Assembly (NCBI GenBank): GCA_951799445.1
Contig: OX637297.1
Coordinates: 14,012,001-14,076,000 of the forward strand
Origin: Pseudisothecium myosuroides
Lineage: Eukaryota; Streptophyta; Bryopsida; Hypnales; Lembophyllaceae
Direction of reading: 5' to 3'
DNA: 64,000 nt
Shown: in pieces, positions 6,613-31,635 of the stretch
Layout of the letters: the number at the start of each line of letters is the position of its first letter
Position numbering within the stretch: the first letter of the stretch is position 1
Translations under genes and position numbers: made by a program
Notes under the pieces: model-generated
What the model was told of the DNA's origin: nothing
Database searches by the model: none
Seen by the model: the letters and a program-made list of their open reading frames with translations, nothing else

Positions 6613-6614
6613 TT

Positions 6615-7180: not shown

Positions 7181-7181
7181 C

Positions 7182-10022
7182 TCAAGTGGAATTCAAGGCA
7201 GCTAAACTGTCGTGAATCACTTCAATTTGAGCGGCCGGGATCTTCAGCTTACACTGAGTCGTGTCCTTCTTGATCTGTGACTTCCATGCAGTCATCAAGG
7301 AATCTGTATGCTCCCAAATAGGATGGAGAGCTTCGTCAACCTTCCAGCGTAATCCTCCTGTAGAATCCCAACCAGTGTAGAATTCTTGAATGTTTCGGTT
7401 TCTTGATGTAGGCTTGAAATACTGAATGAGCACAGAATTGGGTTCTTCGGGGTTGCAATTTGGATCAGACAACGCTCTTGCAATCCAAACAGGCCTTGCA
7501 TCGCCATCCGCGGGACGAATAGCAAGAAAGTATCCTGCATAGACATCACGCATTACCCGAAAGGATTGTTGTGGGCGATCGCGTAATTGCCCAACATAGA
7601 TGTCATCCTCTGCAAACTCTTCCCGAATCTCACCATTATCTTCAAACTGATCTTCAATCGTCGGTGCAACACGAGTGGATGGCCAAAAGCCATCTTTCAA
7701 AGAAGATGGAGGTTCAATAGGTTCATGCAACACTGCTTTCACTACTTGCCAATAGTATATTAAATGCTCATACCGTCTTCTGTACTCCCCAGTTTGGTCT
7801 TCATTGGACAATTTCTCCCAATAATTGATGAATCCCGTTAAACCCTTGAATATGTCATCAACACCTCTCATGGGGCGTGAAAAAATGGGGACCGGCTCTC
7901 CACACGGCCACAAACTCCAACCTTCAGAGTCTTCTTGCCATAATTTAATGCCTCCACCTTCTTTAGGAAGCCAGTCTACATCCGTGCATAGAAGCTTGTA
8001 CTTCATGACTGGGCAGTCATTTGACTCCAGGTAGAATTTGTATTGTTGAGCCTTGGTGTGCCCAACAAGAGACTCGTCTCCCTCCATGATGAATCCCTGA
8101 ATGAAAGCCTTAAAATCAGGCACTTCTTCTACAAGATGGGGAATTGTAGGAACCGATTCTACTTCCATGAAGGACTTCATAAGTGAAGGAATGGTGGAAA
8201 AGTTTTCTTTCTTCAGCAACATGCTCCACCTCCCAAACAGTGCATCGATATCATCGTGAGTATGTCCCACGAGCATGAAATTCACATACACTTCCCGAAA
8301 AAAAATTTTGGCAACAAGAAGGGACCAGAAGCAAAACACAAATCTATTCTTATTATCACCAGTAGCATTGTCCATCTGAACATTCAAAATCGGAGGGAGT
8401 GACAGCCCTAAAATTGGGATCTCTGGAGCTGGTCAAAGAGATGTCTTGCAAATGTGATCTCCTTGTAGAACTGCATCAAAAAGAGGAGCTGATCTGGAGC
8501 CAACAAACAACTCCCTGGAGGAATACTTTGGAGGCAATTCCAAATCTCGCAACAACTTAGCAAAGGAGCCGATTGTGTAGTTGGAATCATGAGAGAAGAT
8601 GTCCAGGCCATAATGGGCATAACGGACATCACCATGACCGTGGGCTATCATACCGGTTACAGATACAGGCAACTTGATTAGACCATCAATAGCCTTATGT
8701 TTGTGGGAGAAAACGGGGGAAGCGGTCTTGGCATGATCCATTTTATCATGCATGATCGTCAAGCACTCATGTGGGTAGGAACTTGACCTGTAACGATTTG
8801 CATAATACAATTCCTTGTATGCCCTAGCAACAACCAAATGCAAATCTAACTTCTTGGCCCATGTTAAAGTTGATTGAGACCCAGCAGGTGCACTTCTCCT
8901 AAGTGAATGGTATCTATCACATGTGGAACAACGTGCAAAATTGTCTCCAGGTTTCTTAGCGTCAAACTCTGAAAAGTTAACCTTCCTGATCTTGCTCAAA
9001 TTGGATGTAGATACTTCTTTCAATCCAAAGACCGTGTTCACAGAGTTAATTTCAGGAATAGCTTCCTTCCATTTCCACGTAGCTGGAAGAATCATGGAGA
9101 CTACCTTCTCGCCCGACTTCAGCGTCCGAGTACGGTGAGGCATGTGATCAGCGTTCTTCTCTAGAATGCACTTCAAAGTGGCAGTGGCTTGCTCAGTGTG
9201 CTTCCGAGGCTTCCGCAAACCAGTATTTCCATGGGGCTGGGCATTGAAACCCTGGTCTGCATATCCTTGGAAACGATGAAAAGTTGCTTCCGATACTTCA
9301 GCAATATGCCTCCAAGCAGACACACAAACATCTATACCCTCCACGGTGACCATCCTCTTTCCTTGCGTATCACGATGAACTTGTCTATGAACATCAAGCT
9401 TCATGTGGTATCGAAACTTATACGATGTGTCTCGATACATACGCTCTCGAAAAGCTCTAATTTTGTCTCTGGAAAACGGTTGAACGCAGTTGTTGACACA
9501 GCAAGTGTTGCTTGAAACACTATTTATGGAGTCTTGAGTGAGAAGAGCTTTGGCCTTCACACAAGTTTCTCTTGGCGGGTTCCTCACTGTACTCGTATAC
9601 CCTGTGCTCCGTGTCGACAGAGGAGCCAAAAGAGCTGCCTGACGACAATTGTAATTGTAACGGAGCTCATGATTCCGAAGACTTGCACCATTATAGAACA
9701 CGTTCTCAATCGGCCACGCACGGACTGAAAACCTCCATTCACCTGGAACATGATTGGTATCTAACGTCTTTGAGATTTGAACGGCAACATAAGAGTCGCC
9801 AAGTGCACCTGTAGCGCCAACTACAAGCTCAGAGCTTACACTGTGACAGATCCCTTCCGCTACTACAAGACCACCCTCATTGAGAAGTGTTACTAACTTT
9901 GTGCTCCAAAGACTTCGTGGAACACCTTCGCATTCGGGAATATCCAATGCCTCCTCTGGATGAACTTGGACATTGTCATCTGAATAGTTATCCTCCGCTT
10001 CGTTCACTCTTGCTGGGTTCAT
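7182..10022 (-). CDS. DUF7869-type protein, probable transposase, one in-frame TGA
   Basis: A single minus frame of 946 codons starts at the ATG at 10022 and is broken only by TGA at 8435-8433 (codon 530), where CGA would fit; both halves are in phase. The N-terminal half has a C-C-V-N-N-C motif near residue 175, a basic R-A-F-R-E-R-M-Y segment after it, and a second Cys pair, C-S-T-C-D-R-Y-H. The C-terminal half has V-Q-M-D-N-A-T-G-D-N-K-N (Asp551) and, 36 residues on, G-H-T-H-D-D-I-D-A-L-F-G-R-W. This pair marks the DUF7869 family, found in streptophytes and some animals. Acidic residues in D-N-x-x-x-x-N-K-N and H-T-H-x-D-I-D would suit an RNase-H-like nuclease fold; the transposase role is inference. 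A large palindrome array starts about 290 bp upstream of the ATG. Another truncated copy lies at 53.6-54.4 kb, showing the gene is repetitive. The TGA could be decay or recent silencing. Confidence 0.75.
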
Positions 10023-10310
10023 GATCTGTTCACCAAATCAAAGATGATCTCAATCGCCAACTTGACACAGAAAATATGGGCGTTGTACTGGGACGGAGTT
10101 TTCTATTTTGAACAAGCAAAACATATACTCCATAAGTCATAAGAAAGGCTAGTACTTAGTCACTATAACTCATTTACAATTATGGTGAGCAAAGGTGATA
10201 TAGCTACTTCCTGAAAGTGCTATATTACCTGCAGTCTAGCTAAATGAAATAATTTCATCAAGTCGTATTCACTTCAAGTGGAGTTGGTTCAAAATAAAAT
10301 GCAAGTCGTA
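10023..10310 (-). promoter_or_regulatory. Putative promoter region of the DUF7869 gene
   Basis: This short region separates the ATG at 10022 from the palindrome array. A degenerate palindrome (TTCACTTCAAGTGGAG) lies at 10269-10289, the copy nearest the gene. No certain TATA box is visible. The position of the array suggests protein binding at the element's promoter or subterminal region, which is inference. Confidence 0.35.
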
Positions 10311-12247
10311 TTCACCTCGAATGAAGGTGAATCAAGAACCTCCAAAAATAAGTTTCAACTCAGAAGAAGGAAAAATAGCCTTCATGATGGTGTGGTATTC
10401 AATTAACATTTACTTTCATTGCCTTATACAAGATGAATTTTTTTCATGTATAAGTAAACTGATTAAAATCTATAATCGATATTTACCTCGAGTGGAGGTG
10501 AATTGATGAATTGACCTACTCTTATAGACCCCTAATTCATATTCACCTCGAGTGGAGGTGAAATGATGAATTGACCTACTCTTATAGACCCTTAATTCAT
10601 ATTCACCTTGAGTGGAGGTGAAATGATGAATTGACATTCTTTTATACCCATAATCAATATTCACCTCGAGTGGAGGTGAATTGATAAATTGACCTATTTT
10701 CAAATACCCATAATCGATATTCACCTCGAGTGAAGGTGAATTGATGAATTGACCTATTTTCAAATACCTATAATCAATATCCACCTCGAGTGGAGGTGAA
10801 TTGATGAATTGACTTGTTTTCAAGTTCCAATAATTGATATTCACCTCGAGTGGAGGTGAACTGATGAATTGACCTGTTCTTAGATACACATAATTGACAT
10901 TCACCTCGAGTAGAGGTGAATTGATGAATTGACCTCTTCTTATATACACATAATCAATATTCACCTCGACTAGAGGTGAATTGATGAATTGATCTATCGA
11001 TTATAAATCTAAAATCGATATTCACCTCGAGTGGAGGTGAACTGATGAATTGACCTGTTCTTAGATACCCATAATTGACATTCACCTCAAGTAGAGGTGA
11101 ATTGATGAATTGACCTCTTCTTATATACACATAATCAATATTCACCTCGACTGGAGGTGAATTGATGAATTGATCTATTGATTATAAATCTAAAATCAAT
11201 ATTCACCTCGACTGAAGGTGAATTGATGAATTGACCTGTTCTTAGATACCCATAATTGACATTCACCTCGATTAGAGGTGAATTGATGAATTGACCTCTT
11301 CTTATATACACATAATCAATATTCACCTCGACTGGAGGTGAATTGATGAATTGATCTATCGATTATAAATCTAAAATCGATATTCACCTCGAGTGAAGGT
11401 GAACTGATGAATTGACCTGTTCTTAGATACACATAATTGACATTCACCTCGAGTAGAGGTGAATTGATGAATTGACCTCTTCTTATATACACATAATCAA
11501 TATTCACCTCGACTAGAGGTGAATTGATGAATTGATCTATCGATTATAAATCTAAAATTGATATTCACCTCGAGTGGAGGTGAACTGATGAATTGACCTG
11601 TTCTTAGATACACATAATTGACATTCACCTCGAGTAGAGGTGAATTGATGAATTGACCTCTTCTTATATACACATAATCAATATTCACCTCGACTGGAGG
11701 TGAATTGATGAATTGATCTATCGATTATAAATCTAAAATCGATATTCACCTCGAGTGGAGGTGAATTGATGAATTGACCTGTTCTTAGATACCCATAATT
11801 GACATTCACCTCGATTAGAGGTGAATTGATGAATTGACCTCTTCTTATATACACATAATCAATATTCACCTCGACTGGAGGTGAATTGATGAATTGATCT
11901 ATTGATTATAAATCTATAATCGATATTCACCTCGACTGAAGGTGAATTGATGAATTGACCTGTTCATAGATATCTATAACTGATATTCACCTCGATTAGA
12001 GGTGAATTGATGAATTGACCTCTTTTTATATGCACATAATCAATATTCACCTCGACTGGAGGTGAATTGATGAATTGACATATCGATTATAAATCTATAA
12101 TCCATATTCACCTCGATTGAAGGTTAATTGATGAATTGACCTATTCTTATATACCCATAATTGACATTCACCTCGAGTAGAGGTGAATTGATGAATTGAC
12201 CTCTTCTTATATTCACATAATCAATATTCACCTCCAGTCGAGGTGAA
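10311..12247. repeat. Palindrome array: about 31 copies, 60-bp monomers, 181-bp higher-order repeat
   Basis: The core is a 21-bp near-perfect palindrome: arms TTCACCTC and GAGGTGAA around five variable bases. I count about 31 copies, at 10311, 10482, 10542, 10602, 10660 and then every 60-61 bp to 12227. From 10861 on, three spacer types follow in fixed order (GACCTGTTCTTAGATA; GACCTCTTCTTATATA; GATCTATCGATTATAA), making a 181-bp higher-order unit repeated about seven times. Each palindrome is followed by TTGATGAATTGA. Repeated 63-codon minus frames across the array are by-products of the periodicity. The same palindrome forms a second array at 23.4-24.2 kb and lies singly in two introns of the 24.4-28.3 kb gene, and I saw it nowhere else in the window. 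Confidence 0.95.
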
Positions 12248-14354
12248 TTGATGAATTGACCTATTCTTAGATAACCAATTTGTGATTAAGTAATTCCACT
12301 CTATCTCATTTATGGACTTTGAAAACCTTCTCTCATCTTGTTTTCCAATCAGAATATAAAGTAGTACATTCAGGTCGACTATGAATTCATATTGTTTGTA
12401 GCAAATTCCATTCAAATGAAGAATTACAACTACACCACTTGCAATGTTCACCCTTCACTGTAGGAGGTGCTACAACCTGCTGTCACTTACTAACAAGATC
12501 CAATACAAACAACTACACTAATAACAGGAATCATAATGGGGTGCAATTTTCCTTGCAATTATCAGTCAATAAAACAATTGAAACCATCAATTCCAATGTA
12601 GACGCATGCCTCCTTGAACTCCTCGGCGTAATCTTCAGAGTTAATAATAGAGCAGTGTACACACAAGTTCGAAAAAATCGGTCAATCTCTTAAAATCTCT
12701 CTTTATACAAAATCATTTGAACAAGTACAAGTGACAACAATTGAGACCAAACTGTTGCAGGAAATACAATTGAACACAAAATTGTCCATTACGATTGCAC
12801 AATTTCCGCTATTCAAGCTACATCTGCGGTCAATTGCCTCACACATTCTGGACTGCAATTCAATAATCCGAAAGACGAATGGTCTTCAATTGAACAACTC
12901 AGTGCATGCAATACAATTCTATTTTCGATTCTACTTTTTAAGATTTAGGATTTTCTAATTCACTATACTTTGTCATCACTACAACAACGATCAGCACAGT
13001 GAAATTCACTGTCTACATACTAAATTATAAGTTGAAAGACTTCAATTCAGGAATGTTGTCTCCACAAAACATTCTCAAAGGCATGTGAGCAGAATCTGTA
13101 CCTTTACTATTACCTCTTCTATCTCAGATGGCACTACTATACTACAATAACAATGCGAACGCCTAAATCCTAAAGCCGCACCAGTTGAGAATCACCGAAG
13201 AAAAAAAAAATCAGAACTAGAAATCCAAGAATTGGACATAGCTTTTCTACACTTGCACTGAATTGAAGATAACTAGCAGCGTTACATCTTGATTACGAAC
13301 CAAAATCACAACCATTGACAGGTTGAATGATGCGACGATGTTTCCATGGAGTCCACACAAGCAAGAGAAAAGATAGAGCATATTGCACAATACAAAGAGT
13401 ATCAAATTCAAATCAAAGGGATACGTCATACTTCCATAGAAATTGCCTGACTCCTTCGATCGTAACCTCAACACGATATGAAGCTCGTAGCAAGCGCCGC
13501 AGCACAACTTGAACAAGCACCGGACTCGACCACTTGCCCACCAGTACTCAAAAGTTTAATCACAAACACTTGAAATAGCACCGGACTCGACCACTTGCCC
13601 ACCGGTACTCAAAAGTTTAATCGCAAACACTCATAAGAACAATATTCGCACATCTCAGGCGCAAGAGCAAAGAGACCTCACAGGAGCAGACAAACAAACT
13701 TCGTCCAAAAATTTGGAATGGCCGCAACAATAATCATTGAGGCGGGAAATTTTGGGAGGGAAGTGCGTTTCCAAACTTGAAACGGTTCTCCTCAAATCTA
13801 GTGCGCTTACAACGGAAGAATGACAGATCCTTCTCCACCTGCAAAATCAAATTCCATTTACTACTTCAAAGGCATTTATGTTGCCGTCACTTTATTCCAC
13901 CGTCTCTAAACTTGCAGGTAGGCGACAGAAATGGGAAAAGTTCACGTTCACCTACTTGAGTTTATGAGAGGCTCAGTCCTCGTCAGGGAATTTTAGGAAT
14001 ACAAGGTTCAGGAGTTAGGATCCACGTGCACATATTTTAAGTAGGATAATTTGCACATTATGCACCTGACATGGCTAAGGCCTACCCTTTACATAGCTCA
14101 TCCCATTCAACCTCATTCCATTTGGCTATTTAAAACACATCCAATGAAATTGGATCTAGTCCTCAAATCAAGGTTCCAAAAACCTTACATTAGGTATTAC
14201 ATTTGGAGCAAATTATCAATGGAAATTGATGAAATTATCTTCATAATTATGGATTTTTTTGCCGTATATTCTTCTTCCTAAATTGGACGACAATTCGAAT
14301 TGCCAGCAAACTTTGGAGCAATAACGCTCTATCCATACCATAAGAGAGGCTACT
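12248..14354. other. Spacer with no recognised gene; one 61-bp direct duplication
   Basis: Mixed AT-rich sequence with only short chance frames on both strands. A 61-bp unit beginning near GCACCGGACTCGACC is present twice in tandem with few changes (about 13508-13568 and 13569-13629). I see no domain-bearing protein. Confidence 0.5.
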
Positions 14355-14395
14355 GGGTTTAGGGTTTAGGGTTTAGGGTTTAGGATTTAGGGTTT
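14355..14395 (+). repeat. Interstitial plant telomere-type repeat (about six units)
   Basis: Nearly six GGGTTTA units in tandem, one with a single change (GGATTTA). This is the plant telomere repeat at an internal site, longer than a usual promoter telo-box. It may mark repair of a break with telomere sequence, or an old insertion. Confidence 0.9.
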
Positions 14396-16244
14396 GAATG
14401 TGGCAACAACACAAGGCAGAGTAGTATCTATTAAAACTAAAGAAGGGCACCTAGAGTGATTTTATAGGAATTACTCTACAAAAGAAGCAACTACTTCTTC
14501 AATACTTATGTGATACTTGGATCACACTTAAGTGATATTTATTGACTGAAATAAATATCAGAAGTAAATGATACATACTTAGATGAAATTCAATATTAGT
14601 TTTAAAAAATAATTGTGATTTGATCATTTTGAATTAAGTAAATTAAAGTTTTTTTCAGCGGTTCAGGGTTATATAACTAGCCAAAAATCATGCATAAAAA
14701 AACATTAAATATTGTAAATGAAAATTTAGCACACACACAAAAAATTCATCAAATTTTACAATGAATGCTCTTTATTTTACCCTTTCTGATGTTAGAATAT
14801 GACTTTGTACTATATAAGTCTCAAACCATATAGAAATGACATGTTTGTATTTTGAAGGAGAGTCGTTCAATTTCTTTAGAATTGAGAGCACAAAGTTAGG
14901 GGTACTAATTTTTACTTCTCAATACATCAAAGTAACTAATTCTTTATTTATATCTATGCCTTTCTAAGGTAATGAGACTAAAGTAAAGATGAAAGGTGGC
15001 ACATCTTTGGTTAATATTTAATTATTTCCAAAAAGTTTGATTAGATAAAATCTAAAAGTAAAAATATGACTCAAGGTGGGATTTTTTTATGCATTGGAAT
15101 TTACAAAACAATGTAATTTTCTAGGGATTATTTTGTGTTCAATCTATCCCATATGTACATTATTAATCATGATTCTAATTTTTTAATAGGATATTTTTAG
15201 CATAAAAGTATAACATTAATTTAATTGGTCATAAGAGAAAAGAAATAAAGACTACAATTTTGTAGTATTAAATTTCTTTTCAAGGTTGAGAAGTCTATAA
15301 ATTCAAACTAAGTAATTGAATTATTTATAACAATAAAAAATTCATTCATATTTTTTATAATTTCATGTTGAAAGAATATATTAGGTTACTGGAGTTCAAC
15401 TAGTATAATGTGCTGTAAAAATTATCTTTAACCGCTTTCATATTAAATGCAATCTCCAAGAATTCTTTAATCCTTCTAGGGGGGGTCACACAATTGCCTT
15501 GTTGTAGATTGCTTCTCTTAGTATTTGAAGATTCACTATTTGTGCATAAATATACAAAGAAATTAAAATAGAATCAAAGATACTTTTGTATCCCACATGG
15601 GGGGGTTATACAGAAAAACTTAGCAAACTATATGCAGCATGATATAGGGAGGTATTAATTCACAACATCTAAAATTTAGAAATAACTTAGAGATAATATA
15701 TGGTATACTAAATCATATGCACTCAATTATAAATAAGATATATAGGTAAGTAATACTACGTATTCAAAAAATTGCACCCAATGTAGGATACAAGCTATAG
15801 ATGCTAGAAATTTTTTGTTACTATGTTCAATTTATGGAACTGCTGATCCATTTAGGGGATGAAGACATATTGGTACTGGTCAAATTTGGATGGACGATTT
15901 TGCCCACTACTATCCGTTGCCTGCGACGTGCCAACTTTAGGGTGGTCAGGATTTTGGGTGCAACTGAACTGGTTTGGGGATTCCTGTACATATTGTAGTA
16001 TTTGCATACTGTAGTGCATATTGTATTGCATACTGTATTATTCACATATTATAGTACATGATTTGTGTCTGTGGCTTTTAATTTTTTAAACATGCTTACC
16101 TTATCAATTTAAATTTGTGAACTTTCAGTGCGAATTTCAAGGTTCTTCATCTGATGTTGTTTCAACTGGCTGGTTACTTCTTTAGGAAGTGCGAGCTAAG
16201 TAGTGAATGGAAAACAACAGGAATTTTGTTGCAACCAATTTGAA
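14396..16244. other. AT-rich spacer
   Basis: Very AT-rich with no protein-like frame on either strand. Near 15.97-16.05 kb there is a short degenerate repeat of CATACTGTA/GCATATTGTA words. Two G runs (near 15480 and 15600) are the only notable local features. Confidence 0.5.
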
Positions 16245-16545
16245 GTAGTTTATGGTTATTTTTCCTTTCCATTTTTTGGGGTCTTAACGTAGTCTACAAT
16301 TACTTTTTTTTCTTATATTTTTGGACTCAAGGTAGTTTACATTTTCTTTTCCATCCCATTTTTTTTGGGCTAAAGGTAGTTTATGGTTTTTGTCCTTCCC
16401 ATTTTTTTGGTGATTAAGGTAGTTTACAATTTTTTTCCCTTCCCATTCTTTTGGACTGATGGTAGTTACATTTTCCTTACCTTCCAATTTTATAACGCTT
16501 TAGGTAGTTTTTGATATTTGTTTCAGTTCCAATTTCTTATGGATT
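16245..16545. repeat. 43-bp minisatellite, about seven copies
   Basis: Units starting GTAGTTTA begin at 16245, 16289, 16332, 16376, 16419, 16462 and 16504, a 42-44 bp period. Each unit has a pyrimidine-rich middle with CCTTCCCATTTTTTTGG. The minus frame across it is a repeat by-product. Confidence 0.85.
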
Positions 16546-18890
16546 TTTAATATTTGAATAATGTGGCAAGCATTGCAGTAGTTCCAACCTCGGAAAACTA
16601 AAATTACTTAAGTTTCTAAAATTTTATATATACTAATTGTTTGAATAGAAGTCTTCAAAGAAATAGACAATTTTATTCGATGCTTTCAGTTCTTGGAAAG
16701 TAATACACATTCATAACAATAAAATATAAAGTAGACTTTCTTAAATTTTTTGAAAACGAGGACCTACCTAGCACTGATTAGTGCCAACAAATGTCTATAA
16801 ATATGTATAAGAGGCCATGAAAAGATTGCATTTGATTTTCTCCAGTTCCAAATGTATATGACTGAGGTAGATATATAGGTTCAAACCACAGTAATAGGAG
16901 CTAGTATTAGACATTATTGAGGTGCTCATGCAGGTTCTTATTGGAATATTCTAACAAAAATTGTTGCTTATTCATCTAAAATAATCCTGAATTGGATGAA
17001 TTAAAGAACCATTAATATGGATGACTGAATGAGTGTTGACAACTAAATTTTTTTATTGAAACTTAGAAACTTAACATAGTTATTTTCTTTTGTATTATGT
17101 CAAATAACCGTAAGTTAAGAACAAAGTACTACAAAAAGATTTCATGTTTTAAGGCATATTCAACAATTAGAACAAAGATTCTTTAAAAAAAGCAGTGGTT
17201 ATGCCAAAATCATCTCCTATAAATTTGTTGGGACCCTATAGGCTTTTTATTATAGTCAATGATTGAGTGCTTTCTACCTGAAAGTATGCCTTACTAAGAA
17301 AATCGATCAATTTGACCCTAAACCAAAAAAATCACAAGAATTAGAATTATAAATTGAGAAGTTTATCTTTCTCATTGAGAATACTCCGTACTATTGTATG
17401 TAAATGGCAACTTGATTCATCCCATTAATTTTGGACTAGTGATGAAAAAATTATGGAGTGTTTTATTTATCAAGCATTCTCATCATCTTCTTCAAAAAAT
17501 AACTCATGATTCATTATTGAACTCCATTTTCACATTTTTGTAAGAAAAGAAGTTGCATATGGATGAGGTTGCTAGCTAAAACAATGTCTTTGTTGCAATT
17601 AGTGTATTTGAATTCCATCTTACAAGTATTGAAGATTTCATATTTTCCTTCACTGTGGTATTTCATATGGAGTATTTGCTTCAACATTTCAATTTCTTGA
17701 CGAATTAAAATGAAGTGTGCTTTTAAAACAAAAATGTAGACCCTCAACTGACGTCTTGAACACAATTTTTTTATTCAATACCTATAGTGCAAAATCTTTT
17801 TAGTTAAATAGATTCAAAGTAAAAAAATCAAATCACGGAAGGTTCCCTCAAAATTGGCATTCTTTACTTTGAATACAAAGATCTTGCTAAACATGTGGGA
17901 GAAGTTTTTTAAATTTCTACCACACATCCTTTTACTTGTGTACTGCAAGATTGAAGAATGTAAAACATTAATCAAATTTGTAAAGCTTATAAAGGAAAAG
18001 TGTCACAAAATCTGAATCATTTCATTGGAATACAATGGAACACCTAATTTAGTTGCATTTTGGCAATCATTACCCAATGAATTGAATAAATGTCTACAAT
18101 GTTACAATGCGCATTGTTGATTGTCAATTCAACGTTTGGTTTCAAGTTCATGATTATTTTGCATTACATGAAAACACCTAATTTAGTTGCAACTATAACA
18201 TAAAGGGTACTAGAAGTTAAAGCATAAATTACATACAACTGCATTCTTGTGATAACATGAAATATGAAATGGCCATTTATAAACTATAAATTTTTTTATG
18301 AATATGTATACTTTATTACGCAACAATATGTCCATTATAACCTCTAAATATGATATTTATTGTTTTTAGAATAAAATCATTCAATTAAACCCTTCATGTT
18401 GGGTACTACCTCAAAATCTCAAAATAGCATTCATTATCTTGAAGGCCATCTCATCATCTACATAAAAGCTTCTAGAAAGGTTAATTATAGAGGGCAATGA
18501 TCAACGCATTTAAAAGTTACCTTGTGTAAAATTTTGACGATTTCTTTTGAACTTCATCTTGAAGTATACCATTCTTTGCAAACATCAAAAATCACAAGCT
18601 TTTTTTTTTCTATTTGTTAAAAATATTAATATATATAAAAATATGGGTTGAGAAAAATGTCTAAAACTGTAAAATTGAGAAGATTAATATAAAATGCAAC
18701 TTCAAAGAAAAAAATGAAGCTGACAATGAAACATAATTTGGAAAATGTGATGTATACATTACATTTAGGTACCGGTAATTGTTTAAATCAAATCCTACAC
18801 TAACCAATTTTGGTAAATAGAATTAAAAAAAAATATTCAATAGAATTATTCAAATAGTTCTATAATATTCACGTTCAACATCTCTTTTTT
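16546..18890. other. AT-rich spacer with traces of dispersed repeats
   Basis: No gene seen. The stretch near 17575-17640 (words such as TTGCAATTAGTG and AATTCCATCT) recurs in diverged form near 59305-59335, which shows dispersed repeat content. Confidence 0.45.
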
Positions 18891-19325
18891 AATTTAAACT
18901 TCAAAAATGTTGAGAACATAGTATAGTGTAGCATGTCTAAGTTTTGTGTCAAAATCTTCTAAATCAAATTTTTCTATGCAAAATAAATTACTTTGTATGA
19001 AAAACGAAGTTCTAAATTGTTTTGAATTTTTTTATTGTGAAACAGATTTCAAGTCTTTTTATCCTCTTGTCACATATCAAATTTGTCACCAAAAAAATAT
19101 GAAAATAAAGGGCATATTTTACATAATTCAAACCAGTTCATGTCTTTTCAAAATATACTCTACAATTTTTTAAATGAATTTTATTGTCATTTTTTCTTAC
19201 AATTGTAGTGCATCTGAGGCGTATTTCCACAAGCCTTGAATATTAGAAAATGAAGATTTTAAATGAGCACCCTTGCACAACATCTTGAATACAATGATCA
19301 AAATTATTCACATAGAATTGAATAA
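18890..19325. repeat. Dispersed repeat, copy 1 (diverged)
   Basis: This matches 20.38-20.70 kb in order and spacing: a CATATCAAATTTG-type segment, then AAATATGAAAATAAAGGGC, then ACTCTACAATTTTTTAAATG, then TGCATCTGAGGCGTATTTCC, then a CACCCTTGCACAAC-type end. It is noncoding. It belongs to a repeat family with copies at 20.15-20.74 kb and 60.06-60.57 kb. Confidence 0.6.
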
Positions 19326-19334
19326 ATTTATATT

Positions 19335-20060
19335 AGTGTGCCCTGTACCGTTGCCACAATGCAAAAAATAAAAATAAAAGTATTTTTCTATTTTTTGATT
19401 CAATAAAAACTTCAAAATTCAATAACTTTCTCATCGTAGGTTCCCCTGCTATGAAACAATCCCTGTGCACTCTTCCTAGCCAAGGGCTTTTTGACAATAC
19501 CAAGCACGCCCTTGGGGAATACACGGTCCGGGAGATCTCAATGTAACAAACAAACAAATAAAACAAAACAAACAAAACAAACAAAACAAACAGCCAAATT
19601 TAAGGTATGGACTTGTGCTGCTGCCACAATCAAAAAATAAATAAAAGCCATTTTAAAACCAAAAATAATTCAAAAATCCATAATTTTCCCAGGATAGGTC
19701 CAAACTCCACAAAGCAAAGTGTACCCTGTGCTGTTGCTACAGCCAAAAAGTAATTTTCTAATTTTTTTATTCAATAAGTACTTTGAAATTCAATGATTTT
19801 TCCATTGTAGATCCAAACGCCACAAAACCAAGTGTAGCCCTATGCCGTTGCCACAGCCGAAAAAAATTAAAAGTTGTTTTAAAAAAATAAATAATATAAA
19901 AGTAAAAATCATTTAGAAAACAAAAAATAACTCAAAAATCCATAACTTTTACATCGCCGAGGGCTTTCCGACGGTACCAAGCACGCCCCCGGGGGACGCA
20001 CTGTCCGGGAGATCCCAACGTGACAAACAAAACAAAACAAAAGAAACAAACAGCCTCTCT
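19335..20060. repeat. Noncoding repeat with a duplicated GC-rich block and AAAC-rich tails
   Basis: A block with ACCAAGCACGCCC, then GTCCGGGAGAT, occurs at about 19478-19545 and again at about 19960-20025, each followed by an AAAC-type microsatellite and CAGCC. Between them CCCTGTGCTGTTGCTACAG-type segments repeat three or four times. This looks like the noncoding part of a retroelement or satellite, not a gene. Confidence 0.6.
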
Positions 20061-20129
20061 TTAGGTATGGATTTTTTAAAAGTAGATGATGTCACAAAGT
20101 ACCCAAAAGCATGATTTCTAAGGGTCACC

Positions 20130-20745
20130 AATTCGGCGTTGATTGTTTAACCCCTAAATGCCCAAGGCCTGTTTTGGGCTTCCTGGATTTTGCTCTAAAT
20201 TGAACAAAATGCCAACAATTTGATGAGTTGTATCAATTTTTTTGGAATTGTAACCGTACAAATTCAAACTAGACATATTAGAGATCTCATAGGAAAAGAA
20301 AACACAACGATATCACTTATGGAGTGAAAGGTTATAATGTTTGACCATGAGGGTGCTAAAACTGCAAAAATCTTTCAATCTTCTTTACATGAGTCAAATC
20401 TAAAAAGTTGGTGATCAAATAAATATGAGGTTAAAGGGCCTAACTTGTATAACCCTGATCAATTTATGGCTTCTTAAAATCTACTCCACAATTTTTTTAA
20501 ATGAATTTTGAATGTGATTTTTTCTCCAAGATCTAGTGTATTTGAGGCTCATTTCCAAGAGCTCTCAACACTACGGGAAGTCAAGATTGCAATGGGTACC
20601 CTTGTATAGAAATTTGAATAGAAAAATCACTATCATTTATTTTCAAGATCGGATTTTTGGTGCTAAAATTAGACTTCAAAAAGAACTTTCTAAAAATATA
20701 AACTACTAAAAATAGCAACTTGGTTAGGTTTTATTTAACTTCAAA
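20130..20745. repeat. Dispersed repeat, copy 2; empty-site relative of a MITE insertion
   Basis: From TTTAACCCCTAAATGCCC through AACCGTACAAATTC and CACAACGATATCACTTATGG to a GTATAACCCTGATC segment, this copy matches 60.06-60.57 kb in the same order. The 60-kb copy has an extra 132-bp MITE; here the matching place (about 20180-20190) is uninterrupted. The right half matches 18.9-19.3 kb. Confidence 0.75.
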
Positions 20746-21089
20746 ATTTTGCAAACACCAGATTTGGGTGCCTTGGGCATTTAGTGGTTAAAGAGTATGT
20801 TTGTTGTCCACTAAGGTAGGAGGCTTGCACTATGATTGGGCATTTTGAACTGAACATGACACAGAGGTACATTTTGCTTTCTTTAATGTACCAAAATGTA
20901 CAGAAGGTGTACATTCTAGGAAGTGGTCGCTTTTAGAGCCATATGGCATTTCAACTTCAAAATTTTATAGTTAATTCCACAAACGTCCAAATAATATGAA
21001 ACAACTTGGATTACATGTCATTTCTTATTGTCTTTCAAGGAAAATTAAGAAAATTAAATATTTTAACCTCTCTGGACAAAATTCAGTTT

Positions 21090-22090
21090 TCACTGCTAGC
21101 TTCATGATCACTATGAGCGCTGAGCGGGTCGGGATTGAAGTCTGACTGCTTCGTGATCACTGTAAGTATTGAATAGGGGTTAACATAGGAGTACCAATCT
21201 GGAAGAGCAGTTGACGAGAATTTGAAGATCTTGGATGTCGACGTCACCACTGAGGTCACGGCTTGGGTCGGGATTGAAGTCTGACTGCGGTCCGGGGGTA
21301 ACTCTCCTTATCTTCTGTGGCTCCTACTCCTCCTAGGGTTTCTGGCTTTTGGTTTCCCGGGCTTTGCCTTCATCGAGGTTTAGAAAGTACCGCACTCTCA
21401 AAAACTTCGTGCGGGCGCGTACCGAGATTTTTTTGGGAGTTCTCCTGCGTTGGCTGGGCGTAGGACGTGTAGTTTAGTTTTTCATTGCGAGTGTTGGGGT
21501 TTGCAGTATCCTTCTAGCTAGTTTCTCCTGCATGACTGCTGCCACCTTTTGCGTGGTTCCCTGTCGCGGAGAAGACCAACGAGGACTGGACGAAGTGGGC
21601 TCGTGAAGTTGCGCTGCTGCTACTGATTTTTGTTGGGGCGCCTGCAAGCACGTCGTGGAGCGCAAGGTGATTTTCACGGACATCCCTACAAGCACGTCGT
21701 GGAGCGCAAGCAGCCAGGTGATTTTCTAGAACTTTGTCGTTGTTATTGCTTTGTTTTCTCTCGGTCTGCTTTTGTAGGCTCTGTCGACTTTGGTTGAGTC
21801 TTGGTAGTTTCTTTGTGGACTTGATAGCGGTGGGCGTGGACGTGAGTTTCGGGTGAGTTTCGGGTGAGATCTTTGGTTGGGGTGAGCTTCGGGTAATGCG
21901 GCGCGTGTTGTAAGTTTCGTTTTGGTTGTTGTTTTGACTTACTCTTCTTTTGCGGTAGGAAGTGCTAGCTGTCTCTGTAATTATTGTCCGCTTGCTTCAG
22001 TTTCAGAAGGAGCTCACATGCCCTATTTTCCTTATCGTGCCTGCTCACTGTGCTAGGGTTTCGGATTAATTTTGGCTAGATCGGCGATTT
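21090..22090. other. GC-richer segment with short direct repeats, possible promoter or 5' leader relic
   Basis: Base composition rises sharply here. GGGTCGGGATTGAAGTCTGA occurs twice (near 21127 and 21267), and CAAGCACGTCGTGGAGCGCA twice (near 21647 and 21690). CCTAGGGTTTCTGG near 21335 is a plant telo-box-like leader element. No domain-bearing frame follows on either strand. It may be the 5' region of a truncated retroelement or gene fragment; I cannot decide. Confidence 0.4.
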
Positions 22091-22224
22091 CTAGGCAATT
22101 TCTAGGTTGATCGACTGTTTTGAAATGATTTGTGATTTCTAGGTTTATCGTGGATTAAATGTTTCCTAATTTTAAGCTCGATCAGTCCAGTGTTCATACC
22201 CGAACCGATCAGAGTAGTACCTTC

Positions 22225-23105
22225 CGATGAACTGATCGACTGAGCAAGAAAACCGATCGACTGAGCAAGAATTTTTTGTAATTTTGATGATGAATTGATC
22301 ACCGATCGACTGAGTAAGAATTTTTTTGGATTTCGGTGATGAACTGATCAACAATCGATTGAGCTAGAATTTTTTGTAATTTTTTTTGAAATTTTGTGAT
22401 GAACTGATCACCGATGACTGAGTTAGAATTTTTTTTAATCTTGTTGATGAACTCATCACCAATCAACTGAGCTAGAATGTTTTTGAATTTCGGTGATGAA
22501 CTCATTACCAATCGACTGAGCTAGAAGTTTTTTTGAAATTTTGTGATGAACTGATCACCGATCGACTAAGCTAGAATTTTTTTTAAATTTGGTGATGAAC
22601 TGATCACCGATCGACAAGGCAAGAATTTTTTTGAATTTTCGTGATGAATTGATTACCGATCGACTGAGCAAGAATTTTTTTGGATTTCGGTGATGAACTG
22701 ATCAACAATCGATTGAGCTAGAATTTTTTTTTTTTTTTTTGAAATTTCGTGATGAACTGATCACCGATGACTGAGTTAGAATTTTTTTTAATCTTGTTGA
22801 TGAACTCATCACCAATCAACTGAGCTAGAATGTTTTTGAATTTTGGTGATGAACTCATCACCAATCGATTGAGCTAGAAGTTTTTTTGAAATTTTGTGAT
22901 GAACTGATCACCGATCGACTAAGCTAGAATTTTTTTTAAATTTGGTGATGAACTGATCACCGATCGACAAGGCAAGAATTTTTTTTAATTTTCGTGATGA
23001 ATTGATCATCCATCGACTGAGCAAGAATTTTTTTGAAATTTCGTGATGAATTGATCACCCATTGATTGAGCAAGAATTTTTTTGAATTTTGGTGATGAAC
23101 TGGAG
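22225..23105. repeat. 50-bp tandem repeat with a 354-bp higher-order unit
   Basis: About 17 degenerate monomers of about 50 bp, each with GATGAACTGATCACCGATCG (or a variant), then ACTGAGC and a T-rich run. A run of about seven monomers is itself duplicated: GGATTTCGGTGATGAACTG occurs at 22328 and 22682, a 354-bp period. The core holds TGATCA and CGATCG, both palindromic. This array lies directly before the second copy of the 21-bp palindrome array. Confidence 0.85.
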
Positions 23106-23383
23106 GCAGCTCGTTCACCGAATTGGAGCAAGGATGTTTGTGAATTCAAACTCAAGGAAGCTCACTGTGCATTTCAATGATTTCCGAGGCGCTTTTTAAA
23201 TTGAATCATTGTGAACAATTTTGCTTTAGGACCATGAGTATACCATTTCAAATCTAGAGTTCAAAATTAGGTTCCAATGAGTACTCTACATTTTGTCTTC
23301 TTAGTTTGTTCTCCAATAAATTCCCTTACATAAAATAATTTTCTCCCTTCTAGTCTACTTCTAGAAGAAGGATCCCAACTCAA

Positions 23384-24210
23384 ATCACCTTGATTCGAGG
23401 TGAATCAATGGCCGCATGGTCTTCTTGTAAAAAATAGTATGTCAAACTCAAATCACCTTGATTCGAGGTGAATCTATGGCTACTTGGTCTTCTTGTGGAA
23501 GTAGTATCCCAAACTCAATTCACCTTCATTCGAGGTGAATAATTAGCCGCTTGGTCTTCTTATAGATTTAGGACCGCAAAACTAAAATCACCTTGAGTGG
23601 AGGTGAATTCCAAACTCAAATCACCTTGATTCGAGGTGAATCAAAGGCAACTTTGTCTTCTGGTAGAAGTAGTATCCCAAATACATTTCACCTTGAGTGG
23701 AGGTGAATCAAAGGCCGCTTTGTCTTCTTATAAAAGTAGTATCCCAAGCTCAAATCACTCTGAGTGGAGGTGAATCAATCAATGGACGCATTGTCTTCTT
23801 GTAGAATTAGAACGCCAAACTCAAATCACCTTGATTCAAGGTGAATCAATGGCCGCTTGGTCTTCTTGTCAAAGTAGTATCTCAAACTCAATTCACCTTG
23901 ATTCGAGGTGAATCAAAGGCAACTTTGTCTTCTAGTAGAAGTAGTATCCCAAATACAATTCACCTTGAGTGGAGGTGAATCAAAGGCCGCTTTGTCTTCT
24001 TATTAAAGTAGTATCCCAAGCTCAAATCACCTTGAGTGGAGGTGAATCAGAAGACGCTTTGTCTTCTCATAGAAGTAGTTTCCAAACTCAAATCACCTCA
24101 AGTGGAGGTGAATCAACGGCCGCTTGCCTTTCTTGTACAAGTAGTATCCATAAATAAAATCACCTTGACTCGAGGTGAATAGCTTGTAGCTCCATTCGTG
24201 GTGAATTTAA
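23384..24210. repeat. Second array of the same palindrome (about 13-14 copies, 33-71 bp apart)
   Basis: Arms (A/T)TCACCTT and GAGGTGAAT recur at about 23384, 23452, 23518, 23586, 23619, 23686, 23753, 23824, 23891, 23958, 24026, 24091 and 24159, with a half copy near 24190. The spacers share GGCCGCTTGGTCTTCTTGT and AGTAGTATCCCAAACTC words. The core is the one seen at 10.3-12.2 kb, but the spacers differ, so the palindrome is conserved more than its surroundings. The array ends about 170 bp before the ATG of the ParB/methyltransferase-like gene. Confidence 0.93.
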
Positions 24211-24378
24211 TCTATTCCTATTTATGAGGTTCTTCAATTCAATTGATATATAGAGTGTTCCATTAGGAGCCAATGGAAATTTGGTTACTACCAATTTCGT
24301 GTTGTATAAGCAAAACGTTTAGGCCTCCAGTTGAATATCTTTTCTAATTAAATTCTTCTTGTATGCTTCAGTATAGGT

Positions 24379-27300
24379 ATGGACGAATACAAAAAGAAAC
24401 TAGACTTGTACTTCAATCAATATGAAGTACCCGAAGCCTTGGTCGAAGAATTTGGTGAAGAGGCCGACAATGGGGATTATTGGAAACTAAAAGAGCCAGA
24501 GAGCGTTGAGTTCTGGAGCATCATTCTTTATCCAATGACGCAAAACGTTGGGTTCATGAAGAAATTCAAAAATGGACCGGTCGCCACACTTCCAATTTCT
24601 CACTATGAAGAAGTTGTTGATATTGCCAAGGGTCCTCCAGGAATGCTTTTGGTCACGTGCTTGATCAAGAACGACCCAGACATGCCAGAGGAATACAAGT
24701 ACACTTATGCCGTCAATCCTCAAGACACGCCATTCAGTATTCATGAATGTTGTACGTCTCTCATGAACACCCAGTATGAAGGCCTCTACAAGGAGCTAGA
24801 AACACAAATCCAGAAAGGAAGGTGGATGAGTAAGGATGGAGGACCGCTGCCTTCAGCAATTCTAGCAACTCGACTGAAGCAGCTGTTAGTCTCTTTTCAA
24901 ATTGAGACAACAACATTAAGGACTAGTTACAAGAACATGACCCCTCAACATTTGTCTCGAGAGTCAAGTGGCGTGGTCGGGAGCCAGTAGTCCCGCCTAA
25001 ATCTCACCCCTGAGACAGGCAGAAGTGAAAATCAAAAACGTCGACCTAGTACTTCAAGAACGGTGCGTGCTAGCACGCCAATGAGGACGTGGGACACTAC
25101 AACAACTGAAGCCAATGATCAAGATCCCGAGTCTAGCTCACTCTCAGTCCTTACAAACATACCAAAGGATTTCAAGTTTATACCCAAAGATAAAGACTCT
25201 GGGAAAGCAAATTACGAGGAGTCCTTGAAGATCTATGATAGTTATTGGTCTGAATGTCAAGAAGCATATTGTTTTGGTAGTGATAAAGTTGAAGAGATTT
25301 CAATTGATCAGTTGATGTTACCTCTTCCTGACATGAACTGCCGCAGTCTAGAGCCGTCCGGCATCGACCACACCATGCATTATTTGATGGAGATGCCTGA
25401 CAAAGACAGAAAGCAGGCCCTTTGTGCTATGCCTATCGGATTGGAGGAAATGCCAAAGGATTGGAAAGATATAAAAGATTGTAAGTTCTACATGATCAAT
25501 GGCCAGCACAGTGTCGAGGCATCAAAGAAGATGCGGACCGAGGCATCTGCATCCAAGATCAAGGAGAAGTTTGAAAAATGGCCATGCTTCACTGTCTGGA
25601 GCAAGGACCACTCCATTCTACGACGAATTTCATCTTATTATAATCGAGTGAATCACTTCGACAAATATACACCTACCTGGGCAACTAATATAATTGGTGC
25701 TTGTGGAGTGTGGGTAAGGATGGGAGAACCAACGCCTCCAAAACAAGCGTCCGAAGTGGGACGATCAGTTTCAAGAACAAAGTCACAATCCAAGGGCATC
25801 AATGCCGAAAATTGGAAGGTATGTCATAAGGAAGTAGTTTTATATTATTCAACTAAATTCTTTCTAATACATATAAGTTAGGAGGTCATCAGTCTATTCT
25901 TGAAGCTTGCAGAATGCAATTTTCTAGTTCATAATTCACCTCCATCCAAGGTGAATTTTCTATTCAGTGACTAATTTGTTTACATTATCTTTGAGTGTAG
26001 AAATTTGACGCTGCTTGCCAGCTACGGTTTGGTATGATTGACATTAAGAAGCAGCAAAGAACCAAGTCTGGCAAGCCCGTGAAGGTTGACATTATAAACG
26101 AGCTCAAAATTATTACTGCTCCAATAGATGTCTATGAGTTATACTCTGAACTCATTTCTGCTGCCTCAATGGGAGAGTTGATCGATCCGGAGTCAAAAAC
26201 ATTGTTCAAGAACAATAAGGGTTGGGTTCCGGAGAAGGATGGCATCATCAATAAAGAGTTCTTCAAATGGCTTGGCAACCTTTCCAATGCAAGCCTCAAG
26301 CGACTTGCAGAGCATCTATTGATGAAGCCTGACCCACTACAGAAGAAGAACAAGAGAATGGAGGATTATCCAAAGGTGACATTTAAGAAGTTGAAGAAAG
26401 TTGTACCAAACTGCTGTACCTATCGACAGTGGTGTGAGAGGCGCAAAAGAAAGCAAATTGTAAAGGTGCAGCTCAATGATATGAAGCCCGAACTTGATTT
26501 GTTAACCACGACGAGAGAGACTAAGAAGGACATGTGGAAGAAATTCAAAAAGGATTACAAGATCACGGACGCTGCCATGCATGTCCTCATCACAGGTCCA
26601 TCTGAGATATTCTTCACTGCATCGAAGCTTTTGTGTAACATCAACAAGAGCATTCGAGAATTGTCACCCTATGCCGAGGAATTTTTGAAGGTCTTCTTGC
26701 GAAATAAAGGAAGGTTTACAGTTCCCACCGGTCAAGCATTCTACCGTCCATTCAACAAAAACACAGACGACTTAGCGAAGTGGGCCAGAGGTGATTGGGA
26801 TCATTTGGATGTTGACCGTATAAAGATGGGATTCATGGACTTCAGAATTTTTCCAAGCAACAAGAAGGAGGCTGGAGGGATGGCAACTCCGTATTTTTAT
26901 TCTTTTTTGATGTTGCTGATGCGGTTAACTGATCTTGCAATTCTTGATATCCCTATGTGGGTGTGGTTGTCTGGAGATAAGAAGACCGACTCCAGTCTCA
27001 TACACCATTTTTACAATTCTGTATTTACAAATAATTATGTCCTTCACCACGCAGAGTACATGCCGGCGAAGTACGAGCGACTTGAAGATCTTGAGTTGAA
27101 CAAGAAGAAAGTTGAAGCGAACGTCCACATCATGTTCCTCATTAAGAAGAACCACAAGGCAAAATGCAACTCCTTGCCAACAAAATTCAAGGCTCCGGAA
27201 ACGCATGAATTCCTTACCTCGGGAGCTTACAATGAAATGCAATACCAAATCTATGAAAATGAACTACGGATGGAATTCTACATAAGCATTTTGGCTTTAT

Positions 27301-28279
27301 TTTGCAATCTTGGAGACACGGTCTTTACCATATACGGGGGTGGAAAAATCATCTGTGCGGCATGGGTGAGTATGTTGTTCTTTCTAAGTATTCACCTCCA
27401 TTCAAGGTGAATTGACATGTTTGTTTGTCTTGGAATTTATTATCTAAAATATATTATTCTAACTATTTTTCCATCTTCTTCCAGATGAATTCCCTGATAA
27501 ATTATATCATTGGGGATTCTGACGAGACGAAATCCTTTAGGGACCTCTCGCAATTGTCTGTGGACTTGGACAAGGCGGATTTCCTTCAGTCAGGGTACTA
27601 TGTTGATGAAGAGAAATATCCAAAGACGGTGGATAATGACACCTCGTCATCCGGTAGGGGCAAGAGAGATCGTATTCAATTGGTTGCTCAAGATTCGGAG
27701 CACGACATGATTGACCAAGGAGAAGATGTCGAAGTCCTCATGATCAATCCTCCCGCATCCCAAGAGTTTAGCACTCCACATGCTGGAACAGTCGCCCCTA
27801 TGGATCCACCAGTAAGTGAACGTCGTGGTTCATCGTTCACTTCTCCATCCCCTTCTTCAGAGCGTGATCGAGGAAAGAGGAAGTTGGATGAAATAGAAGA
27901 TCTTACTATGAAGGATTACATGAAAATGATGCATGAGAGGATGCAGAAGTATGAGGAGGACCAATTTGAGGAGAGGAAGCGTTCAAGGATTGAATATGCT
28001 CAGTTGATGACTATCATCAAGGGAACTCTACCTTCTGGAAATTCTTCCCTTCCAGCTATTGAGATGAATGAGCCGGCCCCTCACGTTTTGTCGGAGAACC
28101 GTGTATCGGTATCTTCAGGTAGTGGAGCTCATGTTCTTCCTAGGACATCTATGGAACTGGATCCAGCGTTGCATAGTCCTTCCGAGGCGCAGCAGCAGTC
28201 AGATGACCTGCAGACTCCTGCAATGAGTTCGGGGGTTGGAAATGAGGAAGTCAATGATCCCCAAGGTTCATCTCAGTGA
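24379..28279 (+). CDS. Three-exon gene with ParB-like motif and degenerate DNA-methyltransferase motifs
   Basis: Exons 24379-25818, 26001-27365 and 27485-28279 join in phase 0 at AAG/GTATGT..GTGTAG and TGG/GTGAGT..TTCCAG, giving about 1199 codons with one TAG (24988-24990, CAG would fit). Exon 1 holds Y-M-I-N-G-Q-H-S-V-E-A-S near residue 372, like the ParB/sulfiredoxin-like nucleotide-binding motif, followed about 45 residues later by S-Y-Y-N-R-V-N, where ParB domains have a conserved Asn. Exon 2 has L-A-I-L-D-I-P-M-W (Asp796), where DNA methyltransferases have [D/N/S]-P-P-[Y/W/F], and near its end C-N-L-G-D-T-V-F-T-I-Y-G-G-G-K (Gly926-928) and I-C-A-A-W, like the SAM-binding motif. Exon 3 opens N-Y-I-I-G-D-S-D, where the acidic end of that motif would fall, then becomes charged and Ser/Pro-rich with a coiled-coil stretch. 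Order (ParB, motif IV, motif I) matches phage ParB-methyltransferase fusions. Catalysis is doubtful because motif IV is altered. Domain calls are by eye. Confidence 0.65.
25935..25955. promoter_or_regulatory. Intron-1 copy of the 21-bp palindrome
   Basis: Arms TTCACCTC and AAGGTGAA around CATCC lie inside intron 1 (25819-26000) of the ParB/methyltransferase-like gene. It is a single copy and not part of a local array. Confidence 0.85.
27391..27411. promoter_or_regulatory. Intron-2 copy of the 21-bp palindrome
   Basis: Arms TTCACCTC and AAGGTGAA around CATTC lie inside intron 2 (27366-27484), about 25 bp after the donor site. Both introns of this gene thus carry one copy. Confidence 0.85.
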
Positions 28280-28827
28280 ACTCTCACTATAATGATTTGG
28301 GATCTTTTGAAGTTGCGTTATTTTTGTTTTTTTAAGTATGGTTTCTTTTCCTTTTACAGGATTGTTTTGTATTGTTGAATGTAATTTTGAAGATTGCATT
28401 TACAAATATGAAGTTGTAAATATTGCAATCGTTTTTTCAGGATTTTTAGTTATTTTCAAAATGTATGTGTATAGAATTGCAAAAGTATTCCATCTTTTTT
28501 TCGCTTGCTTTTATATGTATAATCCAGTTTCACCTTTAAAGAATTGTAAATATTACATTTCTTTTTCAAGATTTTAATTGTGAATTCATACTTAACTCTT
28601 TAAGAGTATGAAAATATAAATATTGAATTTTTTTCATTTACATTATAAATGTAAATCCATAGTTACATGTACATAAATTATAAGTGCGACTTTTGTTTGG
28701 TGATTTTTGATGTGAGTCCACACTTATGTGCATTAGATTGTGAACATAATATATTTTCATAAGATTTGAAGTGTAAATCTACATTTGTTTTGGAAACTAC
28801 TCATTATCCACTTGTATTAATTCGCAG
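28280..28827. other. AT-rich spacer or long intron
   Basis: AT-rich with no protein-like frame. It ends in TTCGCAG, a good acceptor for the next exon at 28828. It may be an intron that joins the ParB/methyltransferase-like gene to the HAD-like exons, or the spacer between two genes. Confidence 0.45.
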
Positions 28828-30094: not shown

Positions 30095-30296
30095 TACTGA
30101 ACAATATTCCTTGCGTTTGTGCATTTTATCTATTGCTATGGTGTTTCATTAAAGACAAGTGTATCCATTATAGTTCTATCATAGTCGTCTTGCAAAATGG
30201 ATGATTGTTTAATTCATTTCGAGTTGTTTTATTGTTTGTATTCCAATTGTCCACCCTTTATTCTTTGTAATCACAGTGACTTTTGTGACTCTTCAG

Positions 30297-31105
30297 GATT
30301 TGCGTGATTGTTCCGTACCATATACTGGTAGTGTTTCCAAGTGTAATGCGTCGGTGGATTCCATTTTAGAATACGGCCAATATGCATTATCTCAAAGCGG
30401 TGTGGGTCACATTATGGTCTCGGCAGCTATTGCACTATCTACTATAGACTTCTCCACAAGACCCATCAATGATGGTGTGGTGGATAGTCCACCAAGCGGG
30501 AGAAAGCGATTGCTTCTAGTGAGCTCCCCGTCGCCACTCAAATCTCGAAAAATAGCTCATTCAGCTTGTCTACGTTCAGTTGATGTTATTGTTCCACAAA
30601 GAAAGTTGTATGTTGACAATAGACACATTCCTACAATTTCTAAGGTATGAATGAATTTGATTTATTATCCATTTGCTACAATTGTGTTCTATGCACGTGT
30701 TGGATTACTTTACCACATATTATTGCAATTATAACTTTTTAATTTATTGTCTTCTTTGTTTTATAGGTATCGAGTGGATCCCAAAGAAAAGATTGTATAG
30801 GCACAAAGTCCATTCCAATACCTCCACGACCTATCAATTCAGCAAATGCTGAATATCCGAGGAAATTAGGATTACAAATTCAACCTGGTCTACTTCCTAA
30901 AAAATTGGTACAACGTCATCGTCCATCGAAGTCACATGATGAACGACTCATGCATTGTACCCATCGACCTTGGGATGCATGGGAGAAGAGGTCCTTCAAG
31001 ATGCAAGAACTACAACATCCCCACCAAATACGCCCTCAAGAATGTAGTCGAGGACCTGAGATATGGAAAGCAATGGTAGAGCTAAGGAGTAGATCTCATG
31101 CATGA
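30297..31105 (+). CDS. Unrecognised two-exon gene (5' end uncertain)
   Basis: Exon 30297-30644 follows a CTCTTCAG acceptor and ends at AAG/GTATGA; exon 30767-31105 follows TTTTATAG and ends in TGA at 31103-31105. They join in phase 0 with no internal stop, giving about 228 codons. The protein is basic, with R-K-R-L-L-L-V-S-S-P-S-P-L-K-S-R-K in exon 1 and a His/Arg-rich end. I recognise no domain. The good splice sites and open frame argue for real coding. It follows the HAD-like gene on the same strand by about 200 bp, so it may be 3' exons of that transcript with the TAA at 30092 spliced out, or a separate gene of the same element. Confidence 0.45.
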
Positions 31106-31620: not shown

Positions 31621-31635
31621 TTTAGGGAGGAGCGG

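Follow-up and report, generated by a model that had tools for sequence, protein, structure and literature searches.

Why should one short palindrome recur in two tandem arrays and, singly, in both introns of a gene? The question is raised by a stretch of 64,000 nucleotides from the moss Pseudisothecium myosuroides (assembly GCA_951799445.1, contig OX637297.1, positions 14,012,001 to 14,076,000), referred to here as the window. A preliminary description, made from the sequence alone, had taken the palindrome as a sign that 7–31 kb of the window is one mobile unit. This was borne out by defined ends with inverted repeats, target duplications, empty sites and many copies elsewhere in the genome: positions 6291–31614 are, with near certainty, one copy of a ≈25-kb DNA transposon with inverted ends. 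As had also been proposed, the unit contains a transposase-like gene of the DUF7869 family, a gene with predicted ParB-like and methyltransferase-fold domains, and a HAD-like (NIF) gene. The palindrome, or dyad, serves as a mark of the element's non-coding DNA: it precedes the first two genes, on their promoter side, and recurs in both introns of the second. Since the motif is altered in step on both sides in related elements, it is probably a landing site for the ParB-like protein, bacterial in appearance, that the element itself makes.

The Dyad and Its Conservation

The dyad is 21 bp long and has the consensus TTCACCTC-N-A-N-T-N-GAGGTGAA, in which the A and T of the spacer are largely fixed along with the arms. 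The window was first searched for both arms, separated by 3–8 bases, with up to three mismatches. With the spacer fixed at five bases and the same tolerance, there were 45 dyads in total, all of them within 6291–31614, in agreement with the earlier remark that the palindrome had not been noticed elsewhere in the window. Two three-mismatch matches with longer spacers, at 28045 and 38028, lay outside the arrays and introns; they were lost when the spacer was fixed and were taken as chance occurrences.

The arrays lie immediately upstream of the two main genes (Table 1). About 31 copies had been reported at 10.3–12.2 kb, and 31 were found (array 1), in a tandem period of 60 bp with 30 copies according to Tandem Repeats Finder (TRF). 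The start previously given for this span, 10269, corresponds to a decayed unit recognized by eye; the first scored dyad is at 10311. Of the ≈13 copies reported at 23.4–24.2 kb, 12 were recovered at up to three mismatches (array 2, TRF period 67/68 bp), while the 13th is a weaker unit near 23754, discernible by eye only. The single dyads described in each intron of the 24.4–28.3-kb gene were both present.

Conservation was measured in four groups of sites drawn from five copies of the element. The mean frequency of the commonest base was 0.87–0.97 within the dyad, compared to 0.55–0.79 in the 25 bp on either side, and the group consensuses agreed at 16–20 of the 21 dyad positions, but at only 5–10 of 25 flanking positions. 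Because the dyad positions agree so much better than the flanks, it is the dyad, rather than the repeat unit, that is conserved, as had been surmised from the differing spacers of the two arrays.

Distribution of the Element and Its Dyads

The genome searched comprises 388 Mb in 222 contigs. With the first 200 bp of the left end as query, 40 places were scored among 47 candidates, 33 of them at 97% identity or more. Five full-length copies were compared, namely that of the window and copies A–D, which were the first four dyad clusters listed and not a random selection. Homology with the window extends from 6291 to 31614, to within one base at either end. Four of the five copies, which range in size from 23.9 to 34.6 kb, are flanked by perfect 4-bp target duplications (TGGG, TATA, TACT and TTAG); no clear duplication was seen in copy C, an older copy of 34.6 kb that contains nested insertions. 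The host repeat that is interrupted by the element in the window was found without interruption at three other places. Copy C (G000:C1:32166047-32200649) contains this same repeat twice, both times uninterrupted. The dyad cluster adjoins the DUF7869 gene in all four of copies A–D, which also carry the ParB/methyltransferase-fold and HAD-like genes, and the DUF7869 and ParB-like genes thus occur together in five out of five fully read copies, as the proposal of a single unit had supposed.

Genome-wide, the dyad was found 1025 times with at most one mismatch, whereas the pattern read backwards, used as a control, was not found at all. At up to three mismatches, the five copies contain 205 dyads, and the 118,115 bp of DNA flanking them contain none. 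The number per copy at one mismatch or fewer is 36, 29, 42, 32 and 16, so that ≈33 such copies would yield all 1025 dyads, a figure not far from the 40 left ends. On a contig of 55 Mb (C1), the perfect dyads among the matches listed form three clusters that correspond one-to-one to the three left ends found there, each at a distance of 4.3–5.0 kb. We also retrieved, from six further left ends picked by hand (four close, two divergent), only the stretch in which array 1 was expected. Dyads were found at four of these (16, 25, 10 and 5) and none in the stretch retrieved at the other two. At one of the latter, the element has shifted by ≈3 kb, which left the position of the array outside the stretch; at the other, the shift is ≈1.7 kb, the remainder of the stretch had no match, and the array may be missing. 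An abundant satellite unconnected with the genes, the alternative to a dyad that follows the element, is ruled out by the confinement of the dyads to the element and by counts that fit its copies.

Four places are occupied by dyads in all five copies, namely the stretches ahead of the DUF7869 and ParB genes and each of the two introns. The arrays themselves are less constant. Their copy number differs between element copies, array 2 is divided into two blocks in copy A, and array 1 of copy C is built from a different repeat unit (44/88 bp) that retains the dyad. Variation in number is what would be expected of neutral tandem repeats that merely hitch-hike in the transposon. However, neutral repeats would leave unexplained the single intron dyads shared by all copies, the constancy of the dyad while the repeat unit changes, and the symmetric arm changes in relatives described below, and we consider this explanation highly improbable.

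Dyads in Related Elements

In a cyanobacterial genome bin, two contigs (L001 and L002) encode a methyltransferase-fold exon at 36% identity, followed in L002 by a HAD-like gene, so that the gene order of the window is repeated there. Each contig has eight sites close to TTCAGCTCGA-N-TCGAGCTGAA (up to three mismatches). Although marked exons make up 65% of these contigs, none of the 16 sites overlaps them; the sites lie in the two introns, upstream in the case of L001, and elsewhere between genes or beyond them. One L002 site, at 6591, lies inside an open frame that perhaps begins with the second HAD stretch and was not counted as coding. A third contig of the same bin, L007, carries an open DUF7869 gene of 963 amino acids; upstream of it are three TTTAGCTCGA-N-TCGAGCTAAA sites, and downstream there are two weak ones. 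In the whole bin there are 19 sites at up to three mismatches, all on these three contigs, compared to one for the backward control. The arm changes among L001, L002 and L007 indicate that both arms change together while the geometry is kept.

All three contigs are filed under a genome record of a Synechococcales cyanobacterium, and a similar protein (P0097) under Leptolyngbya. The closest named relatives of the L007 DUF7869 protein are from the mosses Ceratodon purpureus and Physcomitrium patens, and Physcomitrium also has relatives of the ParB/methyltransferase-fold gene. The presence of moss-like transposon contigs in cyanobacterial records is probably due to contamination of public bacterial genomes. 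A search of viral contigs for DNA of the relatives, by pattern or by profile, returned nothing.

A broader sample was obtained from database proteins that read through into the introns. For intron 2, 73 of 94 proteins reached the exon end, and after dropping 21 tails that were too short and one that was too long, 51 remained; for intron 1, 70 proteins gave 58 tails. At up to three mismatches, TTCAGCTCGA-N-TCGAGCTGAA fits 32 of the 51 intron-2 tails and 28 of the 58 intron-1 tails. The corresponding numbers were 0.73 and 1.1 for shuffled tails, and 0.33 and 0.8 for stretches of exon. Two unrelated palindromes fit none and one of the 51 intron-2 tails. Random arms fit a mean of 0.5 of these tails; the best of 200 shuffled arms fit 32, and was perhaps equal or close to the real arm. 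For the CACCT form found in the window the number is 19 of 51, but this form overlaps the CAGCT form. At up to two mismatches, 62 of all 109 tails fit some pair of arms, with equal arms among the best in 44 and only unequal arms in 18, a split that has no chance baseline and comes from mutually related tails, including that of L002 itself. Two contig sizes, 19,989 and 722,511, are common to the lists of exon-2 and DUF7869 proteins, a hint that the two genes may be linked on those contigs.

The arm changes also bear on the possibility that a host transcription factor binds the dyads, which the element would have captured as enhancers for its two genes and introns. Their location upstream of both main genes, and also within introns, would be in keeping with such a role. 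However, the arms vary between elements of different hosts while the geometry remains constant, the flanks of the five copies are free of dyads, and 1025 sites against ≈40 elements leave little room for sites of the host's own. A host factor thus seems decidedly unlikely.

Candidate Readers of the Dyad

Sub-terminal repeats are binding sites for some plant transposases. The dyads might similarly be bound by the DUF7869 transposase, which would bring the ends of the element together, and it is next to the DUF7869 gene that array 1 is located in all five full copies, as are the dyads of L007. On the other hand, in the window copy 4.0 kb separate array 1 from the left end and ≈7.4 kb lie between array 2 and the right end, distances that argue against the transposase acting purely by binding the ends. 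Single dyads sit in the introns of the other (ParB) gene, and L001 and L002 have many sites around that gene, with no DUF7869 gene seen on those short contigs. We consider binding by the transposase unlikely, and the ParB-like protein appears to be the better candidate.

Complementary arms, and the single copies in introns, could also point to hairpins that function in the RNA, whether in splicing or in countering silencing RNAs. Where array 2 departs from perfect pairing, a G-U pair is retained on the strand sense to the ParB gene in 69 cases, on the opposite strand in two and on neither strand in 48, and in array 1 the DUF7869 sense strand is slightly favored (23 versus 16, and seven on neither), although these counts are not independent, since array units share inherited changes. 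In the introns, however, all 10 wobble departures keep G-U solely on the antisense strand of the gene, and both arrays are upstream of start codons, with the genes pointing away from them. A role in RNA is accordingly very unlikely.

In the explanation we prefer, dimers of the ParB-like protein would bind the dyad as a loading site, from which the protein would probably spread, as bacterial ParB does. By marking or covering its own element in this way, it would keep the genes of the element expressed and un-silenced. We regard the case as evenly balanced for the core of this explanation, that the ParB-like protein reads the dyad and has an anti-silencing or marking role, a view that draws in part on the likeness to the VANC proteins discussed below. 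The more elaborate version is a eukaryotic parS system: the dyads would load a transposon-encoded ParB clamp, which would spread and shield the element from silencing, with a methyltransferase-fold part that does not methylate, and the site and protein would change together so that each element recognizes only itself. This version is possible, but we put it forward tentatively, as somewhat doubtful.

A concrete 21-bp candidate site, natural arm variants, a genome with ≈40 copies and the moss setting together make self-recognition directly testable. If the explanation is correct, the element would constitute a second example of site-guided anti-silencing in the VANDAL style, one that employs a different protein, and possibly a ParB clamp that acts on eukaryotic chromatin.

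Genes of the Element

The coordinates of all features are listed in Table 1. The DUF7869 and ParB/methyltransferase-fold genes are on opposite strands. In each of the five copies, at least one of these two genes has a stop or frame break, mostly in different places.

Table 1. Features of the transposon and its insertion site, in window coordinates.
Feature	Position	Strand	Remarks
Host repeat interrupted by element, left part	5615..6290	.	Empty sites
Target site duplication TGGG, left	6287..6290	.	
Whole DNA transposon	6291..31614	.	25,324 bp; homology of five copies stops at both points; empty sites
Left terminal inverted repeat	6291..6319	+	29 bp, 25/29 identical to right end
DUF7869 gene	7182..10022	-	One in-frame stop at 8433-8435 in window copy
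Array 1	10311..12247	.	31 dyads, 0-2 mismatches; immediately upstream of DUF7869 gene
Second, different dyad array, GGTGAT-6-ATCACC	22252..23102	.	16 units, 49-bp period; just before array 2
Array 2	23384..24179	.	12 dyads, 1-3 mismatches; immediately upstream of ParB/methyltransferase-fold gene
Exon 1	24379..25818	+	N-terminal PTB/FERM-like part and ParB/Srx-fold domain (predicted); boundaries by eye
Intron 1 dyad	25935..25955	.	1 mismatch; position common to 5/5 copies
Exon 2	26001..27365	+	Residues 244-455: predicted fold of beta-class DNA methyltransferases
Intron 2 dyad	27391..27411	.	1 mismatch; position common to 5/5 copies
Exon 3	27485..28279	+	Boundaries by eye; stop-free and conserved in 5/5 copies
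HAD-like (NIF phosphatase) gene	29276..30650	+	Two exon-like stretches, 29276-30091 and 30213-30650; PF03031, E 8.1e-16
Right terminal inverted repeat	31586..31614	-	29 bp
Target site duplication TGGG, right	31615..31618	.	
Host repeat interrupted by element, right part	31615..34423	.	Empty sites

The ParB/methyltransferase-fold gene is predicted from structural models to carry a ParB/Srx fold (the ParB N-domain) and a beta-class methyltransferase fold; that of exon 1, which has an in-frame stop at 24988-24990 in the window copy, was read from the corresponding exon of L002. A Pfam sequence search gave no ParB or methyltransferase match, and a sequence search of the PDB gave nothing for exon 1 and one chance-level match for exon 2. 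In the beta class of DNA amino-methyltransferases, motif IV precedes motif I, and this order is also found in the modeled fold. The catalytic tetrapeptide of these enzymes is (D/N/S)PP(Y/F/W). It was not found in 38 aligned relatives; the equivalent position, matched by strand order, has D-x-R, where x is mostly F, and D280 and R282 are invariant in the 38 sequences. Because the tetrapeptide is lacking, the methyltransferase-fold part would more likely read, shield or recruit than methylate.

The product of the DUF7869 gene is probably the transposase. Its two halves match the Pfam family PF25273 with E values of 3.5e-34 and 3.1e-05, the second just below its cut-off. One stop is common to the window copy and copy A and absent from B, C and D. 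That the in-frame stops serve as recoding signals was ruled out, since their positions vary by copy and copy D has an uninterrupted DUF7869 frame.

Comparison with Known Systems

Giant transposons with ParB-methyltransferase genes (PMC12477816) and site-guided anti-silencing (PMC5735166) have already been published; what is new here is the candidate site. Literature searches found no report of such a site, of its arrays and arm changes, or of its recurrence in the introns of relatives, and a search for DUF7869 found no papers.

Sola1-1_Ec32 of the brown alga Ectocarpus is a 21.5-kb giant DNA transposon in which a ParB-like and DNA methyltransferase gene lies opposite the transposase, and its authors suggested that such ParB/methyltransferase proteins bind and modify their own transposon (PMC12477816). 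The moss element is similar in having both domains, as judged from the modeled folds, in one gene opposite the transposase. In the moss element, the probable transposase matches DUF7869, its only Pfam match above cut-off, and the methyltransferase-fold part lacks the usual catalytic tetrapeptide. The portions of that paper available to us name no binding site for Sola1-1_Ec32.

The VANC anti-silencing proteins of Arabidopsis VANDAL transposons have element-specific motifs in introns, between genes and in terminal non-coding DNA. These motifs often form tandem arrays that change rapidly, and are located upstream of the transposase gene and in the introns of accessory genes; VANC6 and VANC21 target different elements (PMC5735166). 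The moss dyads are likewise found in non-coding parts, introns and tandem arrays. In contrast to VANC, which has DUF1985 and DUF287 domains and a 9-base motif, the moss protein is ParB-like and the dyad is 21 bp long. Neither DUF1985 nor DUF287 gave a Pfam match up to an E value of 0.1 in the element proteins scanned. DUF7869 is not known as a VANDAL transposase.

In bacteria, KorB loads at the palindromic OB site and then slides as a clamp (PMC11790492). The moss element resembles ParB-parS and KorB-OB in its predicted ParB-type fold and in the clustering of palindromic sites near the ParB-like gene, and the half-sites of L007 (TTTAGC/GCTAAA) are identical to those of the OB oligonucleotide given in that paper, possibly by chance. 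Unlike the bacterial sites, which are on plasmids or chromosomes, the moss sites have a longer spacing and lie in a eukaryotic transposon and in its introns.

Other Features of the Window

The second dyad array of the element, GGTGAT-6-ATCACC, is present in the window copy and was not found in the four other copies read; its half-sites resemble those of the main dyad in reversed order. Short runs of GGGTTTA, which we take to be the plant-type telomere repeat, occur inside the element at 14355-14395 and outside it at 5532-5562. A distant DUF7869 fragment (32% identity) is located on the minus strand at 53576-54049, with no dyad nearby. At 61188-63998, an open frame of 937 amino acids that runs past the end of the window has DUF659 and hAT dimerisation domains and corresponds to a hAT-type transposase.

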